A stretch of 14,967 bases of DNA from Candidatus Peribacteria bacterium (GTDB lineage: Bacteria > Patescibacteria > JAEDAM01 > Absconditabacterales > Absconditicoccaceae): positions 1-14,967 of the forward strand of contig JAISKI010000002.1 of NCBI GenBank assembly GCA_031261265.1. The letters run 5' to 3'. A program made the translations under genes and the position numbers. Shown in pieces: positions 199 through 14,842 of the stretch. Under the pieces are notes generated by a model that did no database searches, was not told the origin of the DNA, and worked only from the letters and a program-made list of their open reading frames with translations. Every line of letters begins with the position of its first letter. The first letter of the stretch is position 1.

Positions 199-723
199 AT
201 GACAACAACTAAAGGAGTCGAAAAAGTTTCTGATACCCCACATCTGAAATATTGGGAGATAACAGAAGCCACCGACAAAAAAGAACTCACTCCACTCAAC
301 GCTGAGAAATTACTGAAACTTCATTACGAATCTGCAAGTAAAACTATGAAGCTAGATTTTTATGTTTGGAAAGATAAAAAAGAGGGGAAATACCATCTCA
401 AATATCACGAAGTGGATTATAGTAAAAATAGTGCTGATAAGATAACCTACACTCAATCCATTCCTCCAGAGAATGTAAAAACCGTGCACACGCTAGATGT
501 TAAAAGTCCTGCTAAATTTCTGGAAGATCTCAAAAAAGCATTAGATAGCTATTATAGAGGTGCTAGACCAAAAACAGGAGAAGATAAGGAATTATCTGAG
601 ATTATTTATACAAAACTTGGATTTTGAGATCTACTGAAGCAAGAAAAAAAAGCCCTTGAGAAATTTGCTTATGAAGTAGAAAGATTAGAGACAGACGTAA
701 GAGGGAATGCCTCCTATGCTTAA
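199..723 (+). CDS. Hypothetical protein, 174 aa, one in-frame UGA
   Basis: ATG at 199 lies about 30 bases downstream of a consensus promoter. In the standard code the frame stops at UGA 625-627 (142 aa). Read as Gly it continues for 31 further codons to TAA 721-723, giving 174 aa with Gly143. The added tail is a charged, helix-forming stretch (DLLKQEKKALEKFAYEVERL, starting at residue 144), which looks like real protein. The protein is soluble, rich in Lys and Glu, with no signal peptide or membrane segment. The middle (residues about 50-80) alternates hydrophobic and polar residues like beta strands, and the last third looks helical. I recognise no family. It is probably a single-gene transcript. 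Confidence 0.75.
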
Positions 724-943
724 CAAAACTAAATCCTTTATGTATTACAAATTCCCACTACAAACTCATCTTCTTTAATGCGGTCTGTCTGCCTTTTTTC
801 TGTGGGAGAAATCCGAGAAAGGTGAAAATCTGGAAATCGGAAATGTGCCGTAGATAATACCAAACGAAATATACAATAAATCCCTAGAAATTCCTATCAA
901 AATCCCTACTATACAAACAATATTTACTCACTCATTACCCCAA
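724..943. other. Intergenic, no gene seen
   Basis: This 220-base gap between the hypothetical gene and the CutA-like gene holds only a short UGA-read-through frame of about 33 codons starting at the ATG near 779, with no similarity I recognise. TATACA at 910-915 could be a weak -10 box for the downstream gene, but I see no convincing -35 box. Confidence 0.4.
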
Positions 944-1183
944 ATGCTCATTACCTTTCCCAATGACTGAAGAAAACTAAAAAAACTCATCACCTGACTC
1001 CTCAAGGCTAAACTCGCTACGGAAATTAAAAGGATGAATTATCTTCAGAGTTATACTCTGGTGGAAAATGCTGTGGAAAAAAAGGAAGAAAAGCTGCTTT
1101 GGATCAGTACAGATCAGTCTGAAAAGGTTTCTGCATTTCTTCAGAAGTCTTTTCCTGAGGCCGTGATTTTTTCGTTGAGCTAA
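944..1183 (+). CDS. cutA: CutA1-like divalent-cation tolerance protein, short, 79 aa
   Basis: The gene is visible only if UGA is sense: UGA codons at 968-970 and 995-997 (Gly9 and Gly18) break it in the standard code. From ATG 944 it runs to TAA 1181-1183. The order of elements matches CutA1: an N-terminal beta strand MLITFPND, a helix ending LLKAKLA (family: L...KLAAC), then SYTLVENAVEKKEEKLLWIST (residues 36-56), which corresponds to the family's S.Y.W.G...E.E..L..KT segment, a helix, and a final strand after FPEAV. The usual Cys after KLA, the Trp of the Y.W.G motif and the HPY before the last strand are altered or absent, so this is a divergent member and metal binding cannot be assumed. 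The family forms ferredoxin-like trimers of about 105 aa, and this one is short. The start is the only in-frame ATG after stop 851-853. No Shine-Dalgarno sequence is present. Confidence 0.6.
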
Positions 1184-1276
1184 GATATTTTTTAACGTGA
1201 TATCTCTCTTTGTGGTTGGTTCATTTTTCCTCTATTTTTCCGTTGCTTTAGTTCTTCACTTTCATATAAATAAAAA

Positions 1277-1303
1277 TTGATCGAAAATACTGCATTTTAT
1301 TAT
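1277..1303 (+). promoter_or_regulatory. Possible secA promoter
   Basis: TTGATC (1277-1282) and TATTAT (1298-1303) are separated by 15 bases, just upstream of ATG 1320. The spacing is short and the leader would be only about 10 bases, so this is a weak prediction. The 1184-1319 gap is otherwise A+T-rich and featureless. Confidence 0.3.
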
Positions 1304-1319
1304 TGTTAAAAATACTCAA

Positions 1320-4300
1320 ATGTTAAAACGAATTAGCAACCTCATTGTAGGAGATTATAATCAAAAACAGCTCGATGCTATCGCTCCTCTCATCCCAGAG
1401 ATTAATGCATGGGACGCAAAATACGACTCGTTGAGTGATGAAGAAGTTAAAGCTAAAACCCCAGAATTTCAATCCAGATACCAAAAAGGAGAAAGTTTAG
1501 ATCAGCTTTTACCAGAGGCTTTTGCTGTGGTGAAACAAGCTTGTAAAAGGATGATGGGATCAGAATTGGAAGTGAAAGGAGAAAAACAAATCTGGAATAT
1601 GATTCCTTATGATGTTCAGCTGATCGGAGGAATTATTTTGCATCAGGGAAAAATCGCAGAAATGAAGACAGGAGAAGGAAAAACTTTGGTGGCAGCGGCA
1701 CCCGTGTATTTAAATGCCTTGTCTGGGAAAGGAGTGCATGTGGTGACGGTGAATGATTACTTGGCTTCTCGTGATGCTCAGTGGATTGGGTATGTGTATC
1801 AATGGTTAGGGTTGACGGTTGGAAGTGTGGTAAAGGGAACTCCTTTGCAGAGAAGAAGAGAGGAATATAGTAAAGATATTACCTATGTTGAAAATTCTGA
1901 ATTGGGATTTGATTATCTGCGTGACAATCTGGTCCAAACGATGGATAGGAGAAATGTGGTATGGAGACCGCTGAATTTTGCGATTGTGGATGAAATTGAT
2001 TCCATTTTGGTAGATGAAGCGAGGACTCCTTTGATCATTTCAGAGGCGAGGGAAGAAGCTACAGAAAAATATACCTACTATGCGAATATTGTGAATCTTT
2101 TACAACCTTGTAGCAATAAAAAGAAAGTGTCAAAAGGACTTTTGAATGAATTGATGAATGAAGATATCAAAGATCAGGAAGAAGATGGAGATTATTATAT
2201 TGATGAAAAGACAAAAACTGCTGCTTTGAGTGGAAAAGGAATCGGAAAATTGGAGGAGATTTTGCATGTGGAAAACATTTACAAGGATATGGGATTTGAA
2301 GAAATTCATCATATTGAGAATGCTTTGAGAGCGAAAGCAGTATATCTGAGAGATATTGATTATATCGTGAGTAATGGAGAGGTCTTGATCGTAGATGAAC
2401 ATACGGGTAGAACCATGCCAGGCAGAAGATTTAGTGAAGGACTTCACCAAGCGATCGAAGCAAAAGAGCAAGTACAAATCCAGCGTGAATCTCAGACGAT
2501 GGCTACTATTACTTATCAGAATTTTTTTAAACAGTATACAAAGCTGGCAGGAATGACGGGAACGGCTGCTACTGAGGCGGAAGAATTCCAAAAAATTTAC
2601 GAACTCGAAGTGATCATCGTGCCAACCAATAGAGAGACGATCAGAGTGGATAAAAATGATAAAGTGTATTTTGATCAAGGAGCAAAACGGAAATTTGTGA
2701 AAGAATATATTAAATTTTATCATGAAATTGGACAGCCTATTCTCATTGGTACGGCGGATATTGCTACCTCTGAATATGTTTCTAGAATTTTGGAGAAAGA
2801 TGCAATTACGCATTACGTTTTGAATGCGAAGTTTCATGAGCAGGAGGCTCATATCGTTTCCAATGCTGGGAAATACAAATCTGTAGTAGTTGCTACAAAT
2901 ATGGCAGGTCGTGGTACGGATATCAAACTTGAAACGGGATTAAATGAAAAACTCGCTCAGAATTATGCTACATGGGCAAAAAAACTGATAGAAAAAGGAG
3001 AAGAGAGCCTGCAAGCTATGGTGTATTCTCAAGTGGAGTATGCACTTACCTTAGAGGGCTTGAAAACGGTGCGAGAGCTGAGTGATGAGGAAGTGGAGAA
3101 TTTGATGAAAGCGGGAATTGAAAAAAACGGAGTGAAACTCACTTTACAATTTAATACAAAAAAGAAGGAGGTGACGGATCGATATGCAAGATTCAGTTTT
3201 GAAAATATTGGGAAAGCGTGGACTCTGAAAGATTTTCATTATGGACTTTTCATCCTCGGGACTGAGAAACATGAATCTAGGAGGATCGATAACCAGCTCA
3301 GAGGACGTGCAGGTAGACAAGGAGATCCTGGAGTTTCTGTCTTTTTTGTAGCTTTGGACGATACCTTGATGAGAAAAATGGGTGGAGAAAGGATTAAATC
3401 AATGGCGGGACTCTTGCTTTCCAAAGAAGAGCTTGGTAGCCTTGAATTGACGCAAAGTCAGTTTACTACAGCTATTACCAGGTCCCAAAAGGAGATAGAG
3501 GCATGGCATTTTAGCAGTAGAAAGCATTTGTTTGACTATGATTCCGTGATCGATAAGCAGAGAAGAAATATTTATCATACCAGAGATTCCATTATTGAGG
3601 CTAGTGTGGATGAGGAGAAGATGACTGAATGGATCTCTCAAAGTGAAAAACAATTTCTGCTGGATGCTCAAGAGGTGCTCAATACACAGATTCAAGCGTG
3701 AGAAAATACGGAGCAAGGAATCGGGGATTTAATTGAGGTACTGAATAAGGAATTTGGGCTAGCTTTGACGAATCAGCAAAAGGAAGAATATCTAAAATTG
3801 AATTATCAATCTTTGAACGAGATCTTGGAATTGAGGTTGGTAGAATATTTTCAGTCAGCTTTTTCAACTTTGGATCAGCATTTGCTTTTCAATATCTTTA
3901 GAGATGTTTCTTTGCAGGTGATCGATAAACTTTGGGTGGCCCATATTGATGAAATGCAGTATTTGAAAGATAAAGTGGGATTTATGGGCTATGCTCAGCT
4001 TGATCCGCTGATCGTGTACAAAAAAGAGAGTTTTGAAAAATTTCAAGATTTGCTCACTACTATTAAAGTTGATACTAGCACTTTTTTGATGAGATTGGAT
4101 TTTATGACTATCGCTCAGCAGCAACAGGCTCAACTGCAGATTATCGAGGCAGTAGAAAAGAATCCTGATCTTTTGGCAAAGCTCAAGTCTGCTAGTCAAA
4201 ATGTGAGAGTCTCTGCTCAGCCTGGTCAGATTTATTCTGCTGATGGAATTGTGCCTTTAGGGGGAGATGATAAGAGAAAACTCCTTTTCTCTGATGAAGA

Positions 4301-4466
4301 TGGGGTGGAAATTTTTGAGGTAGATGGAGAGAAAGCTGATCCTCTACCATCTTCTGAACCCTCTGAAAATCTTTTGCCATCTTCCAAGAGAAAAATCAGA
4401 CCTAATGATCCTTGTCCCTGTGGCAGTGGGAAAAAGTATAAAAAATGTTGTGGAAAGGAAGAGTAG
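1320..4466 (+). CDS. secA: Preprotein translocase ATPase SecA, 1048 aa, one in-frame UGA
   Basis: SecA is the ATP-driven motor that pushes unfolded preproteins through SecYEG at the cytoplasmic membrane. Visible signatures in order: Walker A MKTGEGKT (residues 115-122), DEID with following SILVDEARTPLIIS (224 on), the VDEHTGRTMPGRRFSEG segment, GMTGTA, VATNMAGRGTDI (about 524-535), the arginine-finger region GRAGRQGDPG (662-671), and a C-terminal SEC-C zinc motif C-X-C-X8-CC (Cys1032, 1034, 1043, 1044). UGA at 3699-3701 is residue 794, read as Gly. In the standard code it would cut SecA in the helical scaffold region and leave an orphan 3' piece, yet the frame continues unbroken to TAG 4464-4466. 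Length is above the usual 800-900 aa because of insertions around residues 260-330 and 540-620. It is monocistronic and convergent with rplN. Confidence 0.97.
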
Positions 4467-4540
4467 AGGTTCACAAGAAAAGTGTGGTGTTGGTTTGTTA
4501 TTTTTTATGAATAAACAATGAGAAGAGAACACAGAGTTTA

Positions 4541-4630
4541 CCCCTATCAGGGGGAGAGGGAGGAGGACAAGTAGGGAGAGGGCTCGTCCCTATCCGATGA
4601 GGACGACGGAAGAGGGGGTTGTTCCTCAAT
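4541..4630. repeat. G+C-rich repeat element, intergenic copy
   Basis: This stretch is far more G+C-rich than its surroundings. Its left part (4541-4562, CCCCTATCAGGGGGAGAGGG...) and right part (around 4606-4625, GACGGAAGAGGGGGTTGTT) match the element inside the giant surface gene at 9322-9376. The intergenic copy carries an extra central hairpin, TCGTCC (about 4584-4589) with GGACGA (4601-4606). It lies between secA and rplN. It looks like a dispersed palindromic repeat family. Confidence 0.55.
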
Positions 4631-4665
4631 CTCCCATTTTCAAAACTTTGAATTTCCTATATACT

Positions 4666-4705
4666 AAAAAAAAAGACAACCTATAGAGGTAAGTTATCTC
4701 TTTTT
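4666..4705. terminator. Probable bidirectional terminator between secA and rplN
   Basis: A run of nine A (4666-4674) and a run of five T (4701-4705) flank an imperfect hairpin. AAAAGA pairs with TCTTTT, and the inner ACCT pairs with AGGT around an ATAG loop, with bulges. The A tract on one side and T tract on the other let it serve both converging transcripts, secA on plus and rpmC-rpsQ-rplN on minus. The stem is imperfect. Confidence 0.5.
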
Positions 4706-4727
4706 ATTATGTCAGTTGTAATGATTT

Positions 4728-5105
4728 TTATACTACTTCTTCTGCCATGTTGGTAATATTTCTCCAACCCAAATCACGAAGCTCTCTAGCTACAGGTCCG
4801 AATACTCTCTTTCCAATAGGATTGAGATTTCCTTTGGTGTCTTTGGTCAAAAGTACTACCGCATTATCTCCAAAACGTACATATGTCCCGTCTGGGCGAG
4901 CTATTTCCTTTCTTACACGAACAATCACTGCTGGTACTACCTGTCCTTTTTTTACAGAAGCAGTAGGAGAAGCATCTTTTACAGCTACTACCACTCTGTC
5001 TCCGATCGTACCTGTGCGAGCGTTTCCTTTGATTATTCTGATGATTTTGGCTTTTTTAGCTTGCGTATTGTCCGCAACTACTACCATACTTTCCTGTTTT
5101 AGCAT
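4728..5105 (-). CDS. rplN: Large ribosomal subunit protein uL14
   Basis: This 125-aa protein (family usually about 122) begins MLKQESMVVVADNTQAKKAK and matches L14 throughout: the VVVADN...AK N-terminus, IGDRVVVAVKDA, VVPAVIVRVRKE, a GTYVRFGDNAVVLL segment, and the C-terminal GKRVFGPVARELRD. L14 sits at the subunit interface of the 50S subunit and contacts 16S rRNA helix 14. The gene ends in TAA and contains no UGA. It is the last gene of rpmC-rpsQ-rplN, 33 bases after rpsQ, followed by a probable terminator rather than by rplX as in the usual spc operon. No Shine-Dalgarno sequence precedes the ATG. Confidence 0.97.
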   Translation of the reverse strand: MLKQESMVVVADNTQAKKAKIIRIIKGNARTGTIGDRVVVAVKDASPTASVKKGQVVPAVIVRVRKEIARPDGTYVRFGDNAVVLLTKDTKGNLNPIGKRVFGPVARELRDLGWRNITNMAEEVV

Positions 5106-5138
5106 TGTTTTTTAAGCTACAAGAATTAAAAGTTTACA

Positions 5139-5384
5139 TTATTTCACAATCTCCCACCTGATGAGTTTACTTAACGGTGGAATAGCTCTGATTTTTACAG
5201 TATCTCCAATTTTGCTTGCATTTTCTGCATCGTGTGCATAGTATTTTTTGCGGACTACAAATCTTTTTTTGTAAATGGGGTGCATTTGTACACTCTTTAC
5301 CATCACGACACGAGTTTTTTGCATTTTGTCGCTTACGACTTCTCCGATGAGTTCTTTGATGTTTTTATCTCCAATAATGGTCAT
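5139..5384 (-). CDS. rpsQ: Small ribosomal subunit protein uS17
   Basis: An 81-aa protein with typical S17 features: LIGEVVSDKMQKTRVVMV near the N-terminus, the HPIYKKRFVVRKKYYAHD OB-fold segment, KIGDTVKIRAIPPLSK and a terminal RWEIVK. S17 binds 16S rRNA early in 30S assembly. The start codon overlaps the rpmC stop as TAATG (shared A at 5384), which suggests translational coupling. It ends in TAA and has no UGA codon. Confidence 0.95.
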   Translation of the reverse strand: MTIIGDKNIKELIGEVVSDKMQKTRVVMVKSVQMHPIYKKRFVVRKKYYAHDAENASKIGDTVKIRAIPPLSKLIRWEIVK

Positions 5385-5587
5385 TAGTTCGCCAATTTAG
5401 AATGTAAAACCGTATTGATTCTTGCAATTTGTACTCTGATTTCTCCGAGTTTGTGAGTTTCTTTAAGCCCACGGATTTCGTTTTTCATTTTGAGAGCAAA
5501 AAGTTCGTTTCTGAGTTTTTTTCTCATTGCCACGAGGTCTTTTGGTGATTTCTCAATGATTTCATTCATAAATGATTTAGTTTTCAT
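5384..5587 (-). CDS. rpmC: Large ribosomal subunit protein uL29
   Basis: A 67-aa, strongly helical basic protein. The L29 core is clear: a helix with KSPKDLVAMRKKLRNELFAL, then the second helix with THKLGEIRVQIARINTVL. L29 lies by the exit of the ribosomal tunnel. I chose ATG 5587 (MKTKSFMNEI) because the frame upstream to 5791 is not L29-like; ATG 5569 is an alternative. It is the first gene of a three-gene cluster, without rplP and rpsC in front as in the standard S10 operon. It ends in TAA. Confidence 0.9.
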   Translation of the reverse strand: MKTKSFMNEIIEKSPKDLVAMRKKLRNELFALKMKNEIRGLKETHKLGEIRVQIARINTVLHSKLAN

Positions 5588-5636
5588 CGATAATGAACAA
5601 GTAATAAAGTTGTAAAATTCTGAATGCAGTAGTGAG

Positions 5637-5664
5637 TGTATAGTTATTTGCTTTCGAATTGCAA
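5637..5664 (-). promoter_or_regulatory. Possible promoter of rpmC-rpsQ-rplN
   Basis: On the minus strand TTGCAA (5664-5659) is followed after 16 bases by TATACA (5642-5637), about 50 bases before the rpmC start. Both boxes are near consensus. The divergent plus-strand promoter for the membrane-protein gene lies next to it, so 5588-5777 would be a shared divergent regulatory region. Confidence 0.45.
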
Positions 5665-5688
5665 GGGGATTTTCCCTCTTTTTTTTAT

Positions 5689-5716
5689 TTGCAAAAGCGA
5701 CCCTAAACTTTATACT
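5689..5716 (+). promoter_or_regulatory. Probable promoter of the O-antigen ligase-like gene
   Basis: The -10 box TATACT (5711-5716) is identical to those at 158 and 8960. TTGCAA (5689-5694) lies 16 bases upstream as the -35 box. The leader to ATG 5778 would be about 50-55 bases. Confidence 0.5.
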
Positions 5717-5777
5717 ACCAGAGAAAAAGAAAAACAAAAGCAGATGGACTTCCTTTACTTTGTACTCAATTTCCGCC

Positions 5778-7325
5778 ATGAATCTCTGCAATTTTAAGTA
5801 TCGACTGGTTCTGCTTTGTAAAATCTTTCTGATTGGACTGTTGCTTCAATTTTTTCTCCAGACGTTCGTCACTTTCCAATTAGGACGAGATGGAGGGATT
5901 TGGACTGCTGTTTGGATGTGGAAGGAATTTATTCTGCTTCTCTTGCTTGTTGCCGTGTGCTATGTGGCAGTGACACAAGTCTCCAAACGGTGGAAAGAGT
6001 GGAAAACTACTGATCATCGGCGAACTTTTCTCAAAAAACATGCCTTACTCCAGTTTATTCTGCTTTTTGTAATTTCTGCGGTTGTTTTCTTTCTGCTTGC
6101 AGTGGTGGTTCAACAGGTGGGACTTTCAGCTTTTGTTCTCTCGCTCAAATACGATCTGCTTCCTTTTTTCATCTTTGGATTGGGGGCGTGTCTGGGAGTG
6201 TTAGTGTTTACAGAAAAGGATAAAGAGCTTTTTCAACTCTATAAAAAATTGATGATCCGATGTTTACGAGGGGGGATTATTTGGTGGGTAGTAGTGTATT
6301 TTTCTCCTAATGTGTTGAGGCATTTTGGCTATGATGGACTCAATTATGAAGGGACTATTGGAGTCAGGCCGCCTTCAGCTTATTATACTCTCGTCAATCC
6401 ACGTTTTCCTGGTAGCTATGTTAGGAATCAATTCCTCTTTGAGAGGCCGATTAGTTTTGGTTTTTGGTTAGTAGCGTTTTTCCCGTTTTTTGCATTGGGA
6501 TGGCTAAGAAAAAAGAGTATCAAAAATCAGATTTGGTATCTCATTATTTTTGGGCTTTTGGTATTTTCTACCTGGTCTAGAGCGGGGATTGCTATCTTCG
6601 CCGTGGAAGTGGTAGCTGTAGTCTTACTCTTGCATCGAAAAGCTTTAAAAAAGTGGTTGCGAGGGATTTTAGCTCTAGGAGTATTGAGTGTCTGAGCTAT
6701 TGCTTATTTGGGGACGGCATTCTTTGCGAGGGAACATTCTAACACGGGACACTTAGTATTGGTGCAGGAGGGACGAAATTTAGCGAAAGAACAACTATTC
6801 ATCGGGCGAGGAGCAGGATATTCGGGCCCCGCTTCCCATCAACTGTGCTATGATGCGGAGGGAAATGTGAGATGTGAGGCGATTCAGGCGATCAATGAAA
6901 AACATAGTATTACTACCTATGGCTTCAATCCAGAAAATCAATATCTTCAAATTCTGATGGAATACGGAGTGATAGGTCTGCTTTTTTGGCTTGCAATGCT
7001 GGCTTTCATCTTGTGGTATACGGCGAAGATGGTGCGAATATATCGTACTACGGAAAAGTCCTCGTATCAGAAATTTCTCTGGTGGAGTTTGATCGGGTTT
7101 GGGATTGGGTTAATTGGGCTGTGCGGTGAAGGAATGGTCTTGCATAGTTTGGTAGATAGAATGATTGTCTATCCGTTTTTTCTCCTCTATGGATTGGCTC
7201 TTGGGGGTCGGGAAAGCGTAAAAGATGAGGTGTATATTCCGTTAGTAGCAGAAAAAAAGGGAAAGAAAAAGAAACCTGTCTCTGGTGGTAAAAAGTCTGG
7301 AAAAAAGAGGGGGAAGAGGAAGTAA
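5778..7325 (+). CDS. O-antigen ligase/polymerase-like polytopic membrane protein, 515 aa
   Basis: The frame runs from ATG 5778 to TAA 7323-7325. One UGA (6693-6695, residue 306, in a hydrophobic segment VLSV-G-AIAYLG) is read as Gly. About twelve hydrophobic membrane segments alternate with short loops. Two signatures fit the Wzy_C/O-antigen ligase family: STWSRAG (264-270) at the start of a membrane helix, and PENQYLQILMEYGVIGLL (from about 385), equivalent to the family's H-N-x-x-L-x-x-x-x-E-x-G-x-x-G block. The large loop between them is where this family has its periplasmic loop. The last 23 residues are almost all Lys, Gly, Ser and Arg, a probable cytoplasmic tail. Family members transfer or polymerise undecaprenyl-linked glycans, and the substrate here is unknown. 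Upstream TTG 5760 is a less likely start. The gene stands alone, with no glycan genes beside it. Confidence 0.75.
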
Positions 7326-7333
7326 TGATCCTT

Positions 7334-8116
7334 TTATGCGAAAGTGGTTTGCTGGATAATTTGTGGAAAGAGGAGGACAGACTGGTCATTAGGATTAAAG
7401 AGAAAAGGCTGGACATCGCGTTGAAGGGTGGCAAAATCTATTCATTCAGCTTTTTCTAAAAGATACTTTTTTACGGTTTCTGGGGTAGATATTCCTAATT
7501 TTTGTTGTAAAAATTCGTAATCAGGTTTTTGAGTTCTTCCTAAAAGGAAAACGATATCAAAAAAATCCCTTCCTTTGGTTCTTTTCCTCGTAAAGCAGGC
7601 AAATATTTTTTGAGATAAAAGCAAAGAAGGAGAAACGGTTAAAATAGTACTTTGTACATCAAATTTATTCAAAAAATAGGAGGTAGGTGCATATTGATAT
7701 CCCTGTGAAGTAGTATCAATTTGAATTAGAATCGTTTGCGTCTTCATAGGGGATAAATTGTTTTCATAGAGCAATGAGGGAATGCTAATATGACAGTGGA
7801 ATGCTCCTTTTTTGATGGTTCTCATTCTGACTTCCAATCCCTCATGCTCCAAATCTTTTTGTACATGTTCAGCTAAGAGATTAAAATCATCAAAAGAAAG
7901 CGTTCCGTCATTATCGAAATCAATATCTTCGGAAAATCTCGTATTTCCATAGACGATTCTCAGAGCGGTACCACCAATAAATCTGAGTGATGTACCTTGT
8001 GGAGAAGCGAATACACTTTTGAGAATTTTATATTGCAGATATTCTCTCAGACAGGATTCTGCTCTATCAGGAGAAAATTCTGGATAGTAAGAAAGGATTT
8101 GTGATAAACTAAACAT
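7334..8116 (-). CDS. abiEii: AbiEii-type nucleotidyltransferase (toxin-like), 260 aa
   Basis: ATG 8116 overlaps the abiEi-like stop by 8 bases, the tight coupling expected of AbiE pairs. The nucleotidyltransferase core is clear: RFIGGTALR (residues 45-53), then NTRFSEDIDFD (58-68) with the acidic metal-binding residues. A conserved-looking KGRDFFDIVFLL segment follows in the C-terminal half. In the standard code it would end at UGA 7444-7442 (224 aa). Read as Gly it gains 36 residues, including FATLQRDVQPFLFNPND, a C-terminal block like that of full AbiEii/PF08843 proteins, and stops at TAA 7336-7334. AbiEii proteins are GTP-binding nucleotidyltransferases that halt growth, in lactococci aborting phage infection. 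Here the function is inferred. The stop lies 8 bases from the convergent membrane-protein stop. Confidence 0.85.
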
Positions 8117-8732
8117 CGGTAGTATGGAGATAATCTAAAAAAAACTGAACTCTTTTCTGAACGGATTTTGGATAACGAGAAGCATATTGTGTCAGGAGGT
8201 CATTAGAAGCTATGTCTTGCCAGACCAATACATTAATCCTCTGTTCTTCAAAATCTTCTGAACTGGTGATTTCGTGATGAAAGTAGAGGTAATCGCAAAG
8301 GGTCTTTTCAGGAGAAGCAATGCGGACAGTGGGGTATCTTCCTAGGGTATGCAAGTCATATCCCCAGTACCAACGAGGATGTAAAGAACGATAAGAAAAT
8401 TTTCCCACGGAGAGCGTAGAGGTTTGCGTTTTTTTGGTAGTACAAGAAGTGTACTGATACACTCCTTCTGGAATAAGGTTATAATATCTTAATGCCCATT
8501 CCAAACTGAGATAAGAGGGTTCATAAAGCATATTTGCGATCACTGCTCCAATTCAAACTTCTTGCAAGGTCTTTGGATGTATCCATCGTCCTTTTGTTAG
8601 AGCAATTAGTCGTCATTTTTTAGTTCGACTATGTAGCTGTTGTACTGCAAAATTCTTCTCTTGAAGCCTAATTTCTTGAAGAGAGAGAGGATAAAGTTCG
8701 TTATAGGTTTGAGTGAATTTTTTGAAGTTCAT
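8109..8732 (-). CDS. abiEi: AbiEi-type antitoxin / transcriptional regulator, 207 aa
   Basis: Reading two UGA codons as Gly (8615-8613, residue 40; 8555-8553, residue 60) extends the gene from GTG 8543 up to ATG 8732. The recovered N-terminus holds a winged helix: a helix ending FAVQQLHSRTKKGRLIALTK with the wing KGRW, where the first Gly of KKGRL is the UGA residue. The following IANMLYEPSYLSLEWALRYY and NLIPEGVYQYTS are the hallmark of the AbiEi family C-terminal domain. A standard-code annotation would lose the DNA-binding domain. AbiEi antitoxins neutralise AbiEii and repress their own operon by binding inverted repeats at the promoter; a 12-bp inverted repeat is present there (8730-8793). 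The gene ends in TAG and overlaps abiEii. Confidence 0.85.
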
Positions 8733-8793
8733 TTCTCAAAATCATATAAAAGTATGATTACGAGAAATATAATAAGGATTTTTTTGAGAAATG
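8730..8793. promoter_or_regulatory. Inverted-repeat operator at the abiE promoter
   Basis: CATTTCTCAAAA (8730-8741) and TTTTGAGAAATG (8782-8793) are perfect 12-bp inverted copies 40 bases apart. A third GAGAAAT core lies between them at 8762-8768. The distal half-site overlaps the predicted abiEi -35 box, the middle one borders the -10 box and the proximal one contains the abiEi start codon. This matches the known layout of AbiEi autoregulation, where a winged-helix antitoxin binds inverted repeats. Confidence 0.65.
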
Positions 8794-8796
8794 CAA
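8769..8796 (-). promoter_or_regulatory. Predicted abiEi-abiEii promoter
   Basis: On the minus strand TTGCAT (8796-8791) is followed after 16 bases by TATTAT (8774-8769), giving a leader of about 28 bases to ATG 8732. It lies inside the inverted-repeat operator. Confidence 0.5.
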
Positions 8797-8937
8797 GAAA
8801 TTCATCTCTTTTTGTTTTCTTTTTTTTGGAGAGGGGCTTTTATGATGTATAATATGTCGTATTAATATAATGTCCATATATATATAGAACTATTTAAAGA
8901 AATCCAAGGTGAAGTGCATGAAAAAGTAGCTGATTTT
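8794..8937. other. A+T-rich divergent intergenic region, no gene seen
   Basis: Between the divergent abiE pair and the surface-protein gene lies a T-rich tract (about 8807-8829) and alternating TA runs (about 8875-8886). I see no conserved reading frame or RNA. It may help insulate the two divergent promoters. Confidence 0.4.
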
Positions 8938-8965
8938 TTGACGAGAAAAAATTTTGGGGTATACT
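8938..8965 (+). promoter_or_regulatory. Promoter of the giant surface-protein gene
   Basis: The -35 box TTGACG (8938-8943) and the -10 box TATACT (8960-8965) are 16 bases apart. The string TATACTTAGAG (8960-8970) is identical to that at 158-168. The leader to ATG 9002 would be about 30 bases, as for the gene at 199, and lacks a Shine-Dalgarno sequence. A second TATACT lies at about 8983-8988. Confidence 0.65.
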
Positions 8966-9001
8966 TAGAGGTAGAAATTTTATATACTATTTAGGCATAA
9001 A

Positions 9002-12000
9002 ATGAAAAAGATCTCTATTCTCAGTCTGCTTGTACTAGCCATTTCAGTTCTTACTTTTTCTGCATTTAAGGAAAATCAGGAAGAAGAGATTATCTTGTAT
9101 AATACACTAGAAATAGAAGAAACAACAGATACCTCTGATACTTCCAACCTTGATACAGAAACTACACTTCCTGAAGAGGGAGAAGCCAACATTGGATGAG
9201 ACATTGATGATAAAGGTATAAATGCTTCTGACGTAGATGAAGAGAATACTGATAAAGATACTGCTGAGGACTCCGATGAAACACCGTCAGAGGATAACAA
9301 AGAGAATCCTTCTGTTGATCTCCCTGCTAGGGGAGAGGGAGACCCCACAAGTGTAGGGTCGGAAGAGGGGCTAGCAACATCAGATGAACCTACTGAGGCA
9401 CTTAACGACCTTTCTCCGACAGCACTTATCACCAGTGGGAGTATCTCTATTAATATCCCAGAATATGATCCAAGTATTTGATGGAATGTGGCAACGACTT
9501 CCACAACTGATATAAAAAATGCAGTTATTATTGCAGATTTTTGATGAACTTCATCTCCTGATAAAACGGTTAGAATTCAACTTTCCGAATGATTTAAATT
9601 TGTGAAATATCCAGTACTAACCGTTACAAACGCTACACTTGAAGTTGAAGCCAATAATGAAATGAAACTCGTTTTAGATTCTGTAACGAGTAAACCAGTT
9701 AGCCAAACTTATTATCCCTCCATTAATAGTGGATACTTAGAATATAAACTTAATCCTTCGGCTACAAAAATAGAAATTAGAGGGTTAGCTTTTGCTACAG
9801 ATGAAGCAGTTGTTTATACAAATATGACACTTACAGGTGCCATTACAGTTAGTACTATTACAGATGGAATACTACAACAAGAGCTTTCTATGGATATTGA
9901 AGCAAAGGCGAATCGAACTTATAGTTTGCATAAATCGAGCGATAATACTCCACAACTTCCAGATACTACTTTTCGTAGTACTACACGATATACTCATGCA
10001 CTATATGTTAGTAGGTACAATAAAAAAATGAGGTTATATTATTACTATCCACCAGAATTTTCAATTGTGTCTGTCTATTCCAGTATTGCGTCTAGTCAAT
10101 ATACCTACGAAATACATACAGAATCAGGATTAGTAATTTTTGAAAGAAACAATGTATATAACAATAATATGGGATCTTTTGCACTGAATCTGAGTTCATC
10201 AGGTGTAGCTCCTGGTACCTATGTTACTCCCAGTAATATTGTATTAGAAGCTGAGCAATATGATGGTACTATCAGAAGCATTACTATAGCTCCTCAATCT
10301 GTTCAAATTCTTGATCCAAGTACCATACCGAATAAAATTACTCTTAGAGGTGCTAATAATGAGTATAATCCCAATATTTCACCAGATTTTTATATTAAAT
10401 GACCTAGTTTCAGTATTCTAAATAATGATCCTATACCAAAAACTAACCAACGAATGTCTTACGAAATAGGGACAGGATATGAAGTCATAGAATTAGCTTT
10501 TTCAACTACCAATGGAGTAGCTCCGATGTTTTACGAACGAGAAACCCGATCGGGTTTGACAGGAACGGCCACATGATCTGAGATTATTCCTCAATCTGCT
10601 ATCGTGATGAAGAAGCGTTGATATCGTATTTCAATTACTTCATTATGATTGCCTATAGGAGAATATTTTAAATCTGCGAAAGCTTATTTAGGAGATATCA
10701 CAGGAGATATTCTCCTACCTCCCTCATCACCAAGTACTGATTACTATTATAGAAATACACCAAATTATCTTCTAGGTCGCCTAACTCCATGAACTCTGAA
10801 TGCTACGGTGACTGGTCAGACATGGTCGCAAGATGGTAGTGGGAATATTGATCCAAATTCTCTTGCATCAGTGTCCTATAAGGTTATTAGCAATCCTACA
10901 GCAGGACTAAAAGCCTGATTAGTAGTACCAAATACAACAATAATTGCAGGTGAAAGTCATACGATTAGTATAGCATTAAAATCATCAGAGTCATTTAATG
11001 GAGCGGGAACCCACAGACAGATACATGGGTATTCTAATCCAATACTCTATCTCAGGGAAATCCCAGGAATAACTATGGATGAATCTTCTATCGAAGTAAT
11101 CCAAAATGGTATTCCAATAGTATATCTGACTGGTAAATATACAACTTCACTTTGAGAAGAAATTATTACTATCCAGCCACAAACAGAGATTGGATCGTAT
11201 TTTACCAATCAAACATCTCCCGATGTTACTGTATCAATAGATATAATTACTGATATTTGATCTGATGCAAGATTCTATGATTGGGGAGACTATATTTTCA
11301 TGACAGCAAATAATGCAAGTACCTATTATGGAGATAACGAATGAAATAACTGATATGAGACAGTAGATACCTATGATGTGAATAATAATGGGAATCAAAC
11401 AGAAAAAATATTAAAATCAGGATTCTGAACCCTAACCGTTATTGAAAATAAAACCTTGAGTATCTCCACCTACCTCATCCCTAACGGAGGAACCAAACAA
11501 CTTCCCTACGATCCGACTAAACCCAATACTGCCGTAGCCTTCACCCCTTCTTCAAACGGAGTCTACACCGTAGAATTCATCAATCAAAGGGATGATACCG
11601 TCATGGAAATCGACACCTATCTTCCAATTCCTCGTGCAGGAAATAACTTCTGACCAAACTTCCAATCCACGGGTTTCAGTCGAAATATGAAGCTCTGAAA
11701 TGCCCCAACAATTATGGTCATCGACAAAGATGGAAACGATGTGACAGCGACTAAAGCTACTAATTATTTGCTTACCTACAGTGCAGACGCTACAAACGCT
11801 AGCAACTATCAAACTGCAACCTACACGACCAATATCCCCAATGCAACCATGATCAAAATCATCAACACTGCAGGTATCGCACCAGGAGAAAAAGCCACAC
11901 TCACCTTCGATTATGTCGTAGATGAAACCCCAACCACCGTAGATCTCAACCCAGAAAAACTCTGATCTGTAAACGACTTTATGCCCTACTACTACTTTCA

Positions 12001-14842
12001 AGCTGGTAGTGCGGGACTCGCTAACGGAACCAGAGTAGGAGCTACGCTTCAAGTAGGAGAAATCAGAGGGATCGCCTTCCTCGATACCGATGCAGATGGA
12101 ATCTACAGCTGAGCAGATACCTTACTTCCCTCCAAAACCGTAAACCTGTACTTAATGTCAGGTGGAAATTACCAGCTTCTCACCTGAACTCAAACCACTA
12201 GCACGGGAAGCTACTCCTTCTCTGACCTAGGAAACGGAAACTATCAAGTAGACTTCACCGCCATCAAAGGAGCTTACCCTTACTTCACCAAACAGGGAAA
12301 TAATGCTGACCCAAGTAAAAATTCCACTGTTAATCCCCTTGGTGCAAACTCAGGAACGGTAATCAATCTCGACCCCACAAGCACCGCTTCCAAGGCCGTC
12401 AATGCAGGAGTTCTTGCCTACAATCCAACCGATCCCACCAACGGACTCAAAGTGACGCTCAATAAAACAGGAACCACACTAACGCTCACCACAGGAGGGA
12501 TACATCCCACAGAGCAACTCATTACCACGATATTGCCGACATTCTTTGACTCCATCAAAGATCCGATCAACTGAATCACTTGGACAAGTAGCAATACAGG
12601 TGTCGTAAGTGTTGCAAATGGTCTCCTAGAAGGGAAAGTTCAGGGTACGGGAATTGTCACCATTACTATCCAAGACATCTATGGAAATACTACAGGAGCT
12701 ACCGTACATGTAGAGGTAAAGGATTTGCGGATGCCTATCTGTGAACTAGACTTTACTACCACGAGTCCGACTACTGGAAATGTGACTGCTACCTTAGCCA
12801 GATGTAATAGGCCTGTCACCGTCACCAATACTACAAGTGCTAGCACCTCGTACCTCTTCACCGAAAATGGAAGCTTTACTTTCCATTTCATCGATACTGC
12901 AGGGAATACAGGAAGCACCGTAGCTACAGTAAACTGGATAGATACTTGGTTAGTATTTATTCCTTTCATTACCACGCGAGATACGAGAAATCTGAGTACA
13001 GGAAGTACCGATGAATATACTATCAGAATTCCAACGGTAGGTACTGGATATAATTTTGAGATAGATTGGGGAGATGGAGTTATCGATAATTATAGTGGTA
13101 CTGCACCAGTAGTGAGCCATCCCTATGCTACAGGAGGAGTAAAAGAGGTAAAAATCAGAGGGAATTTCCCAAGAATTTACTTTAATAACCAAAGAGATAG
13201 AAATAAAATTTTGAGTGTAGACCAATGGGGAGATGTTCAATGGACGAATATGGCAAATGCTTTTTATGGCTGTGAAAACCTACAAAGTGTAGGGAATGAT
13301 ATCCCAGTATTTACAGGAACAACTTTTAGTATGGAAAATATGTTTCGTGGAGCAACAAATTTTAATGGCGATTTGAGTAATTGGGATACAAGTAATGTGA
13401 CAACGATGGCAAGTATGTTTTACTGAGCAACAAACTTCAATGGTTCATTGAGTGGATGGCAAACGGATAGTCTAACTGGAAATGGAATGGTTTATATGTT
13501 CCAAAGAGCGAGTAGTTTCAATCAACCTGTCAATCACTTCAAGACAGAGAATATTACTACTTTACAACAAACATTTTACTGAGCGAGTAGTTTTAATCAA
13601 CCTTTGGATAATTGGAATACAAATAGAGTAATAACTATGAAAAATATGTTTAATAGTTGAGGTTGAACAATAGCAGATGGAAATATGTCATTTAATCAGC
13701 CTTTAAATACTTGGGATGTGTCTAATGTTGAAGATATGTTCGGAATGTTTTGATGAGCAAAGGATTTTAATCAACCTTTAAATCAATGGGATGTAAGTAA
13801 GGTAACCACTATGTTTGGAATGTTCACAAGAACTCAGAGTTTTAATCAAGATATTTCTATGCGAAAGATTGGTAGTGGGGTGGATATGGAGAGAATGTTT
13901 GATAGAGCATTGGTTTTTGATAAAGACCTTTCTAACTGGAATATAACAGGTGTAGTAAACATATCTGGTATGTTTCTTGATTCAGCTCTTTCTACCTACA
14001 ATTATAATCAAATCCTTAATTGATGGTCAGCACAGAATGTGCAAAGCTGACTGAACTTCTGAGCAAGCCCTACCAAATATGGAGGCTGCAATATCACTAA
14101 TAGAGAAGCAGGTATAGCAGGACATAATAAACTGATAACTGATAAAGGACGAACCATTACCGATGGAGGACTAGCCGACTGTGCTCCCGCTCCAAGTACG
14201 AGCTGATGAGGTGGCGGTACCAGCTTAACGAAAGATAATTGTCCGAATGGGGACTTTTCGCCAAGCTACTATGATGGTGAATGTGAAGCAGAAGTAGAAC
14301 ATAACGCTCCAGACAAAGAAGACTCTACAAAAACTCTCTACGAAACCGCTTACGAGCGAGCTAAAGGCTACGGAATCACCACCGCTTCTACCTATGAAGA
14401 AGCAAGGATCTCCGATGCTATCCTTAGACAAGAAATGGCAAAAATGATCTCTACGTATGCTATCAAACTCTTTCAAAAAACTCCTACTACTTCAAAACTA
14501 GAGTGTTCTCAATTCCAAGATGTTTCTGAAGTACCTACCGAACTGCAACCCTATATCATTCAATCCTGTGAACTTGGTCTGATGGGAATGCATGGTGATG
14601 GAATCCAAGTTCAAGATAACTTCTTCCCTAAAAACTCTATTACCAGAGCAGAAGTAGGGACTATCCTCTCCAGACTTCTCCGAGGGACTACGTATGCTAC
14701 TCAGCCAGGTGATGAAACCTACTATACTAGACATTTACAGGCACTCAAAAAGGCAGGGATTATGAATTTCATCTCTAATCCTGATATGTTAGAACTCAGA
14801 GGAAACATCCTCTTGATGCTCTGGAAAAGTGTGACCAAATAA
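9002..14842 (+). CDS. Giant modular SLH-anchored surface protein, 1946 aa, about 33 in-frame UGA
   Basis: One frame runs from ATG 9002 to TAA 14840-14842 with no UAA or UAG; I read every codon across the gaps between UGA codons. Domains by residue: signal peptide 1-21 (MKKISILSLLVLAISVLTFSA); acidic Asp/Glu/Thr/Ser linker 22-140; beta-rich unrecognised region about 145-1000; SdrB-like domain about 1016-1140 (GEIRGIAFLDTDADGIY); Big_2-like about 1161-1240 (ITWTSSNTGVVSV); Ig-like 1245-1316 ending FIDTAGNTGSTVATVNW; PKD-like 1343-1397 (FEIDWGDGVIDNY); BspA-like DUF285 repeats about 1418-1673 (MF.GA..FN...NWDTSNV); Gly5 linker 1735-1739; Cys pair CPNGDFSPSYYDGEC 1747-1761; SLH-like repeats 1796-1946, with ITRAEVGTILSRLL clearest. 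It is probably Sec-exported, held to the envelope by SLH, and exposes adhesive or binding modules, possibly toward a host cell. Its binding partner is unknown. Confidence 0.9.
9322..9376 (+). repeat. G+C-rich palindromic repeat inside the surface-protein gene
   Basis: This stretch resembles the intergenic element at 4541-4630: a left part CCCTGCTAGGGGAGAGGGAG, a central ACAAGT, and a right part GTCGGAAGAGGGGCTAGCAA. It contains the hairpin GACCC-C-ACA-AG-TGT-A-GGGTC (9341-9360), and its ends TGCTAG and CTAGCA (9325-9330, 9371-9376) are complementary. It is translated in frame as LPARGEGDPTSVGSEEGLA (residues 107-125) within the acidic linker, where an insertion should be tolerated. Confidence 0.5.
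13253..14020 (+). repeat. DUF285/BspA-like repeats within the surface protein
   Basis: About nine degenerate repeats of roughly 25-35 codons with the pattern M..MF.GA..FNQ.L..WDTS.V. Copies begin near 13256, 13340, 13415, 13493, 13571, 13643, 13736, 13811 and 13889. The Gly of MF.GA is coded by UGA in several copies (13424, 13580, 13754), while Trp in the same repeats is always TGG. Such repeats form solenoid-like surface structures in other bacteria. Confidence 0.75.
14387..14839 (+). other. C-terminal SLH-like anchor region (residues 1796-1946)
   Basis: Three SLH-like units can be traced. The first has AILRQEMAKMISTYA. The second has FQDVSEVPTELQPYI, then CELGLMGMHGDG and NSITRAEVGTILSRLL, the strongest match to the F.DV...W....I..A...G...G...G.F.P...ITRAE pattern. 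The third is degenerate, from YYTRHLQALKKAGIM to LELRGNILLMLWK. SLH domains attach proteins non-covalently to cell-wall glycopolymers in other bacteria; in CPR cells the ligand is unknown. Confidence 0.75.

Follow-up and report, generated by a model that had tools for sequence, protein, structure and literature searches.

The window, that is, the whole stretch of 14,967 nucleotides of contig JAISKI010000002.1 analyzed here, carries ten genes, and it is the reading of the codons UGA, CGA, and CGG in these genes that concerns us. On the forward strand, an open reading frame (ORF) for a hypothetical protein of 174 amino acids (aa) (199 to 723; one UGA, at 625), which found no family in Pfam or PADLOC scans, is followed by a CutA-like gene of 79 aa (944 to 1183; UGA at 968 and 995), which covers positions 5 to 69 of the 99 of the Pfam CutA1 profile with an E value of 7.8e-4, under the cut-off, and by secA (1320 to 4466; 1048 aa), which shows the Pfam SecA domains and contains one UGA (3699), three CGA (1329, 3072, and 3180), and one CGG (2688). 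The reverse strand carries the ribosomal protein genes for L14 (4728 to 5105), S17 (5139 to 5384), and L29 (5384 to 5590), all assigned by Pfam and all free of UGA. Next come an O-antigen-ligase (Wzy_C) membrane protein gene on the forward strand (5760 to 7325; Pfam; one UGA at 6693, 10 CGA, and 3 CGG) and, on the reverse strand, an AbiEii nucleotidyltransferase gene (7334 to 8116; Pfam and PADLOC; one UGA at 7442) and an AbiEi antitoxin-like gene (8109 to 8732; PADLOC; UGA at 8613 and 8553, 3 CGA), each covered nearly end to end by PADLOC models. The last gene, on the forward strand (9002 to 14842), encodes a surface protein of 1946 aa with SdrD_B and DUF285 repeats (BspA-like; Pfam, DUF285 match with an E value of 6.6e-82) and harbors 33 UGA codons spanning 9197 to 14207, 11 CGA, and 1 CGG. 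Among the loci of the relatives compared, no homologues were seen for the hypothetical, cutA, abiEi, and abiEii genes.

In total, 41 in-frame UGA codons are spread over seven of the ten genes; all those listed in the original prediction, which was made from the sequence alone, are indeed in frame. Its statement that no gene stops with UGA was borne out as well, since the ten genes end with TAA (eight) or TAG (two) and none with TGA; TGA triplets at 1164, 1176, 1278, and 5846 lie upstream of the secA or L29 starts and were excluded from the counts. When UGA is taken as sense, the surface ORF reaches 1946 aa; apart from the frames of the ten genes, no listed frame is longer than 250 aa. The claim that seven genes become intact, family-length proteins in this way holds insofar as the frames are open and most families are recognized, but the CutA-like product, with its 79 aa, is not clearly of family length. 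A true stop at UGA, with the genes being pseudogenes or the contig riddled with errors, is an explanation to which we give practically no credence and for which we found no supporting evidence, since seven genes stay open across 41 UGA codons without TAA or TAG and the otherwise open secA frames of relatives hold 1 to 44 UGA; it was rejected on the open frames and on the alignment columns.

The residues favored at each codon were scored from alignment columns of three window genes, the surface gene, secA, and the ligase gene, with UGA, CGA, and CGG masked in all rows; for the surface gene, the homologues are database proteins (120 listed, where named mostly BspA-type proteins of Bacteroidota), masking was on the window side only, and the comparison spans residues 1300 to 1760. 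UGA, scored at 10 of its 41 sites (eight in the surface gene, one in secA, and one in the ligase gene), obtained +7.9 nats for Gly, followed by Asn (+2.5) and Ser (+0.4), with Trp at -9.6. The control codons behaved as expected, with TGG read as Trp, CGT, AGA, and AGG as Arg, and GGA, GGT, and GGG as Gly. Five of 61 codons deviate from table 11: CGA, CGG, TGA, and the narrow misses GTC and TCG, which fall short of their known residues by 1.7 and 0.1 nats, respectively, and indicate the noise of the scoring.

Codon-level alignment of secA from the window and 30 relatives (31 rows) gave a consistent picture: 523 of the 686 UGA codons fall in columns with a majority residue, which is Gly in 483, Ala in 13, Lys in 9, Ser in 9, another residue in 9, and Trp in none. 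In the ligase family, Gly accounts for 243 of 264 majority columns at UGA, counting the eight commonest residues listed, and the column of the window's own codon at 6693 shows Gly in 9 of 12 informative rows and UGA in 7 further rows. In the surface gene, UGA at 14021 to 14023 (forward strand) occupies a column with a Gly fraction of 0.80 of 548, and the next codon, TGG, stands in a 0.98 Trp column. Taken together, these columns support UGA as a putative Gly codon in the window.

Several observations weigh against this assignment. When only the surface gene is scored, Gly is ahead of Asn by just 2.2 nats, and the comparison reaches 11 of its 33 UGA sites, with Gly the top residue in 5 of the 11 columns tabulated; the other six favor Asn (0.35, with Gly at 0.34), Ala, Ala/Leu, Ser, Leu, and Leu/Ile. 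The single secA UGA of the window, at 3699, lies where 25 of 27 informative rows have Ala, so that the alignment of secA sites proposed in the original prediction speaks for Gly over the 31 rows but not at the window's own site; in the window and its two closest rows, L001 and L007, the secA UGA codons (n = 5) fall in two Gly columns, two Ala columns, and one without a majority. The AbiEi columns are mixed too. Among 28 database homologues, the UGA column of the motif KKGRL, which had been put forward as a fit to Gly, contains W in 13, G in 11, E in 1, and a gap in 3, and the motif itself includes a CGA codon, so that it reads KKGWL under the code inferred here.

A Mycoplasma-like code, with UGA encoding Trp (table 4), was weighed against the same columns. 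DUF285 is named after Mycoplasma in Pfam, and many AbiEi homologues show W at the two UGA columns (13 and 9 of 28), a pattern that probably stems from gene calling with table 4; the mixture of W and G there may be mostly an artefact of the gene caller. We consider table 4 extremely unlikely, given the strongly negative Trp score of UGA, the complete lack of Trp among the 523 majority columns of SecA, and closest relatives that are of the SR1 type and not Mollicutes, and we rejected it since UGA does not stand in Trp columns. At the CGA codon of AbiEi residue 36, the 28 homologues show R in 16, W in 7, L in 2, and a gap in 3. Because G, W, and R all occur at these positions in the database translations, the AbiEi homologues do not decide the meaning of either UGA or CGA.

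The statement that Trp is always encoded by TGG proved false, since CGA and CGG occupy Trp columns. CGA, scored at 16 of 27 sites, obtained +39.4 nats for Trp, with Phe next at -5.4 and Arg at -16.0, and Trp ranks first in each gene separately (3 surface, 3 secA, and 10 ligase sites); CGG, scored at 4 of 5 sites, obtained +11.0 for Trp, +2.5 for Tyr, and -5.6 for Arg. The scoring thus covers 20 of the 32 CGA/CGG (CGR) sites in all, and CGT, AGA, and AGG remain Arg. The clearest single site is the CGG codon at 2688 to 2690 (forward strand) in an invariant SecA column, where all 22 informative rows carry Trp and the other eight rows carry CGA or CGG themselves. In the surface gene, the CGA codons at 12977 to 12979, 13862 to 13864, and 14150 to 14152 (all forward strand) stand in columns with Trp fractions of 0.91 of 427, 0.97 of 598, and 0.81 of 370, counted in aligned segments of the listed homologues. 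Over the 31 SecA rows, Trp is the residue of 60 of 65 majority columns for CGA (99 codons), with Arg in none, and of 17 of 17 for CGG (18 codons). The majority columns at CGT and AGA, in contrast, show Arg in 154 of 161 and 620 of 697 cases, respectively. With 32 CGA/CGG codons against 53 TGG codons in the ten genes, CGR would make up 32 of the 85 Trp codons.

Here, too, some sites are at odds with the assignment. Only 2688 is clean among the four CGR sites of secA: the column at 1329 contains Trp in 12 rows, Lys in 6, and three others (n = 21), that at 3072 Phe in 11, Trp in 7, Leu in 6, and Tyr in 3 (n = 27), and that at 3180 Ala in 9 and Trp in 3 of 26. In the ligase family, CGA corresponds to Trp in just 38 of 89 majority columns listed; the others are mostly Leu (18), Tyr (17), and Phe (11), and Arg does not appear in that list. 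Most ligase CGR sites are variable hydrophobic columns, and the pooled ligase CGR score ranks Trp first.

Plain NCBI table 25, in which UGA alone is changed to Gly and CGA and CGG are still Arg, shares with our reading the supported assignment of UGA, and some members of the sister clade Gracilibacteria are predicted to retain CGG as Arg (Shulgina and Eddy 2021, PMC8629427). Its prediction of Arg fails at both codons, where Arg scores far below Trp, and most plainly in the invariant Trp column at 2688. We therefore deem it very unlikely and rejected it, CGA and CGG lying outside Arg columns. The original prediction of code 25 is thus supported for UGA but missed the change of CGA and CGG from Arg to Trp. 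CGA and CGG are predicted to be Trp codons in the window, for which table 25 is incomplete.

A search of genome contigs with SecA returned 30 loci, the best of which, L001 (78% identity), is labeled 'Candidatus Peribacteria' Im510_bin22; the labels of the other 29 include 11 of SR1, Absconditabacteria, or Gracilibacteria, three of 'Patescibacteria group', and one of 'Fermentimonas'. Matches were found in 336 of 353 genomes of the class of the relative G001, which gave the best one (79%) and whose L14 is 94% identical to the window's. Over its length, SecA is at most 80% identical to any row compared; a fragment of 192 residues in G047 is 81% identical. In the SecA tree of the 31 rows, the window forms a group with L001 and L007 (support 97/96), joined next by L002 and L003 (99/96), in a clade to which RAAC1_SR1_1, a complete SR1 genome, also belongs. 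Judged from these comparisons, the window nests in the SR1/Absconditabacteria clade, and its proposed membership of Absconditabacteria or Gracilibacteria is supported by both the codon columns and the SecA phylogeny. Names in the relatives' records are mixed (SR1, Gracilibacteria, and 'Peribacteria'). L001 ('Candidatus Peribacteria') and L007 ('Fermentimonas') hold three and one in-frame UGA codons in secA, respectively, and both nest in the window's clade, so that their labels probably reflect misnaming or misbinning.

In the window, no tRNA was called and no Rfam family reached the gathering score, and the evidence on tRNAs and release factors (RFs) is drawn from relatives and not from the window's own genome, which is a further weakness of the assignment. 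In all 13 relatives searched, the prfA and prfB models match one and the same full-length class-I RF gene, with 399 to 443 bits as prfA (RF1) and 213 to 267 bits as prfB (RF2). The RF1 cut-off was exceeded in 5 of the 13 and the RF2 cut-off in none; as controls, 10 of 14 genomes were over the cut-off for each model, the remaining four being archaea. The expected absence of prfB was thus found, in relatives, and it also argues against UGA as a true stop. It is weaker evidence outside G011, since G011 alone is titled a complete genome. Against it, the RF1 match of G005 contains TAA besides UGA, and three genomes carry an extra short, weak RF match.

The expected Gly-type tRNA with a UCA anticodon is present in G001, where 40 tRNA matches, 39 of them over the gathering score, were read with ARAGORN. 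This tRNA(UCA), with G1:C72, C2:G71, G3:C70, and U73, is closest, among eight tRNAs compared, to tRNA-Gly(UCC) (64%). The tRNA(CCG) has A1:U72, G73, and U20 and is 63% identical to tRNA-Trp(CCA); the tRNA(UCG) has G73, U20, and G1:C72 and is 60% identical to it, but does not have A/G1:U72, a pair that favors Trp identity, which is a point against its proposed role. Both are at most 54% identical to the Arg tRNAs, of which those with anticodons GCG, UCU, and CCU have A20. These features correspond to the identity rules for Gly and Trp quoted by Shulgina and Eddy (PMC8629427); positions were assigned by eye, and tRNA-Trp(CCA) and tRNA(UCG) were re-registered, since ARAGORN gave an extra first pair or a different register. 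No tRNA-Gly(GCC) was seen among the anticodons of G001, which probably reflects an incomplete bin. A tRNA pattern of our own composition matched none of 21 genomes, but it was poorly built and is uninformative, since G001 does have tRNA(UCA).

We conclude with high confidence that the window derives from an uncultured species of Absconditabacteria (SR1) in which UGA would encode Gly and CGA and CGG Trp, with TAA and TAG as stops and CGU, CGC, AGA, and AGG as Arg codons. In the mechanism that we propose, loss of RF2 would have ended termination at UGA, which would then be read by the Gly-type tRNA(UCA); the Trp-type tRNAs with anticodons CCG and UCG, if charged as their features in G001 predict, would read CGG and CGA, and tRNA-Arg(GCG), (UCU), and (CCU) would keep the remaining Arg codons.

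The reading of UGA as Gly in SR1 was reportedly described by Campbell et al. in 2013. The code of Absconditabacteria corresponds to the later NCBI table 37, a designation that did not occur in the papers searched. Table 25 shares UGA as Gly with the window and is missing CGA and CGG as Trp. The latter reassignment was predicted for Absconditabacteria, besides UGA as Gly, in PMC8629427 and repeated for Absconditabacterales in PMC13092985, where the class is named JAEDAM01. The window shares the three reassigned codons and the clade with the code of Shulgina and Eddy, and G001 shows the same tRNA set (UCA of Gly type, CCG and UCG of Trp type, and GCG for CGU and CGC; PMC8629427). CGA seems commoner in the window, at 27 of 4,509 codons against fewer than 37 per 10,000, although the window is a tiny sample and only Pfam-aligned codons were counted in PMC8629427. 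Proteomics of BD1-5 yielded 97 peptides unique to a Gly database and 3 unique to a Trp database (Hanke et al. 2014, PMC4032931); the meaning of UGA in BD1-5 and SR1 is that of the window, but these are other lineages and the available text treats UGA alone. Both reassignments were therefore already known from the group, to which the window adds a new member with the published code.

The use of UGA is uneven among the genes. It makes up 1 of 65 Gly codons in secA and 33 of 166 in the surface gene, which have nearly the same GC content (0.392 and 0.391), so that composition does not explain the gap. For secA and the three ribosomal protein genes together, the share is 1 of 80, against 40 of 242 in the other six genes (Fisher p 7.5e-5, with groups set after the counts were seen and one gene dominating). 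Overall, UGA accounts for 41 of 322 Gly codons (12.7%) in the window and 895 of 6853 (13.1%) in G001, counted in 257 mechanical ORFs on 20 stretches, about one-third of the genome; the genes of G001 range from 0 to 60% UGA among Gly codons, and CGR makes up half of the counted Trp codons. The UGA share drops as gene GC rises in four genomes (Spearman -0.44, -0.55, -0.56, and -0.45). Across the 31 secA rows, the correlation with locus GC is -0.70 for the UGA share and +0.46 for the CGR share of Trp, and the two shares are mutually unrelated (-0.02); the rows share descent, which makes the p-values too small.

The mildly new observation is that UGA is nearly gone from secA alongside high use of CGR: UGA accounts for 1 of 65 Gly codons in the window, 3 of 58 in L001, and 1 of 51 in L007, whereas the six next-nearest rows have 12 to 40 UGA. 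The GC trends and the nested position of the window suggest that the lineage lost most UGA from its conserved genes after the reassignment. One tentative explanation, to which we assign no great probability, is that a rise in GC to about 0.36 to 0.40 purged UGA as Gly from conserved genes, with CGR as Trp staying high, in a setting where RF2 was not found in G001. If this were true, the two reassignments would evolve independently, with UGA use tracking base composition and CGR use not tracking UGA. The lineage also provides a natural series for studying the rise and fall of a reassigned codon once its release factor is gone. GC alone is insufficient, since rows of similar GC retain UGA: L010, L021, L022, and L027 (0.37 to 0.40) keep 8 to 16 UGA and L020 (0.37) keeps 44. 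The data would also fit if AT-rich lineages had gained UGA independently.

It is also possible, though again we rather doubt it, that the surface gene and the AbiE genes were acquired recently from a UGA-richer relative, so that one code is used in two ways, which is compatible with the code proposed above. The difference between the surface gene and secA at equal GC would be accounted for in this way, and an island in G003 is compatible with exchange inside the clade; on the other side, the overall UGA share of the window equals that of G001, whose genes vary so widely, and the same pattern would arise if UGA were selected against in genes that are conserved or highly expressed. The island, in C1 of G003 (L174:14167 to L175:16532, about 14 to 37 kb), is AT rich (gene GC, 0.22 to 0.34); of its 24 ORFs, 18 use UGA for at least 60% of their Gly codons, compared with 0 to 33% in the preceding 13 ORFs. 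Nine of 10 proteins scanned are nucleotide-sugar enzymes, glycosyltransferases, an aminotransferase, or a thiamine pyrophosphate (TPP) enzyme, and the island resembles a surface-glycan locus that was passed between members of the clade that reads UGA as Gly.

For annotation, the code proposed here means that table 25 renders 32 codons of the ten genes as Arg and, on such contigs, miscalls about two in five Trp residues (32 of 85 in the window), while table 11 or 4 leads to database proteins that are cut short or probably carry W at Gly sites, as in the AbiEi homologues. Proteins of the clade seem to have entered public sets as translated with table 4 or table 11, as seen in the AbiEi homologues P0121 to P0149 and in P0001. 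The database entries for the window's contig are shortened (SecA, 793 aa; AbiEi, 140 aa), and W or G stands at UGA columns and R or W at CGA columns.

As for the other genes, the AbiEi/AbiEii pair (7334 to 8732, reverse strand) is, by family match, a candidate type IV toxin-antitoxin or abortive-infection system. The ribosomal cluster (4728 to 5590, reverse strand), convergent with secA, comprises just L29, S17, and L14, while in C22 of G001 it continues past L14 with an unassigned ORF, L24, L5, S14, and S8; the usual cluster may have been split here, or the assembly may have joined separate pieces. The 1946-aa surface protein may perhaps serve as an adhesin for a host bacterium, and C22 of G001 also contains two BLAST matches to it, of which one lies in a 1574-aa Ig-like/SLH protein adjoining the ribosomal cluster.

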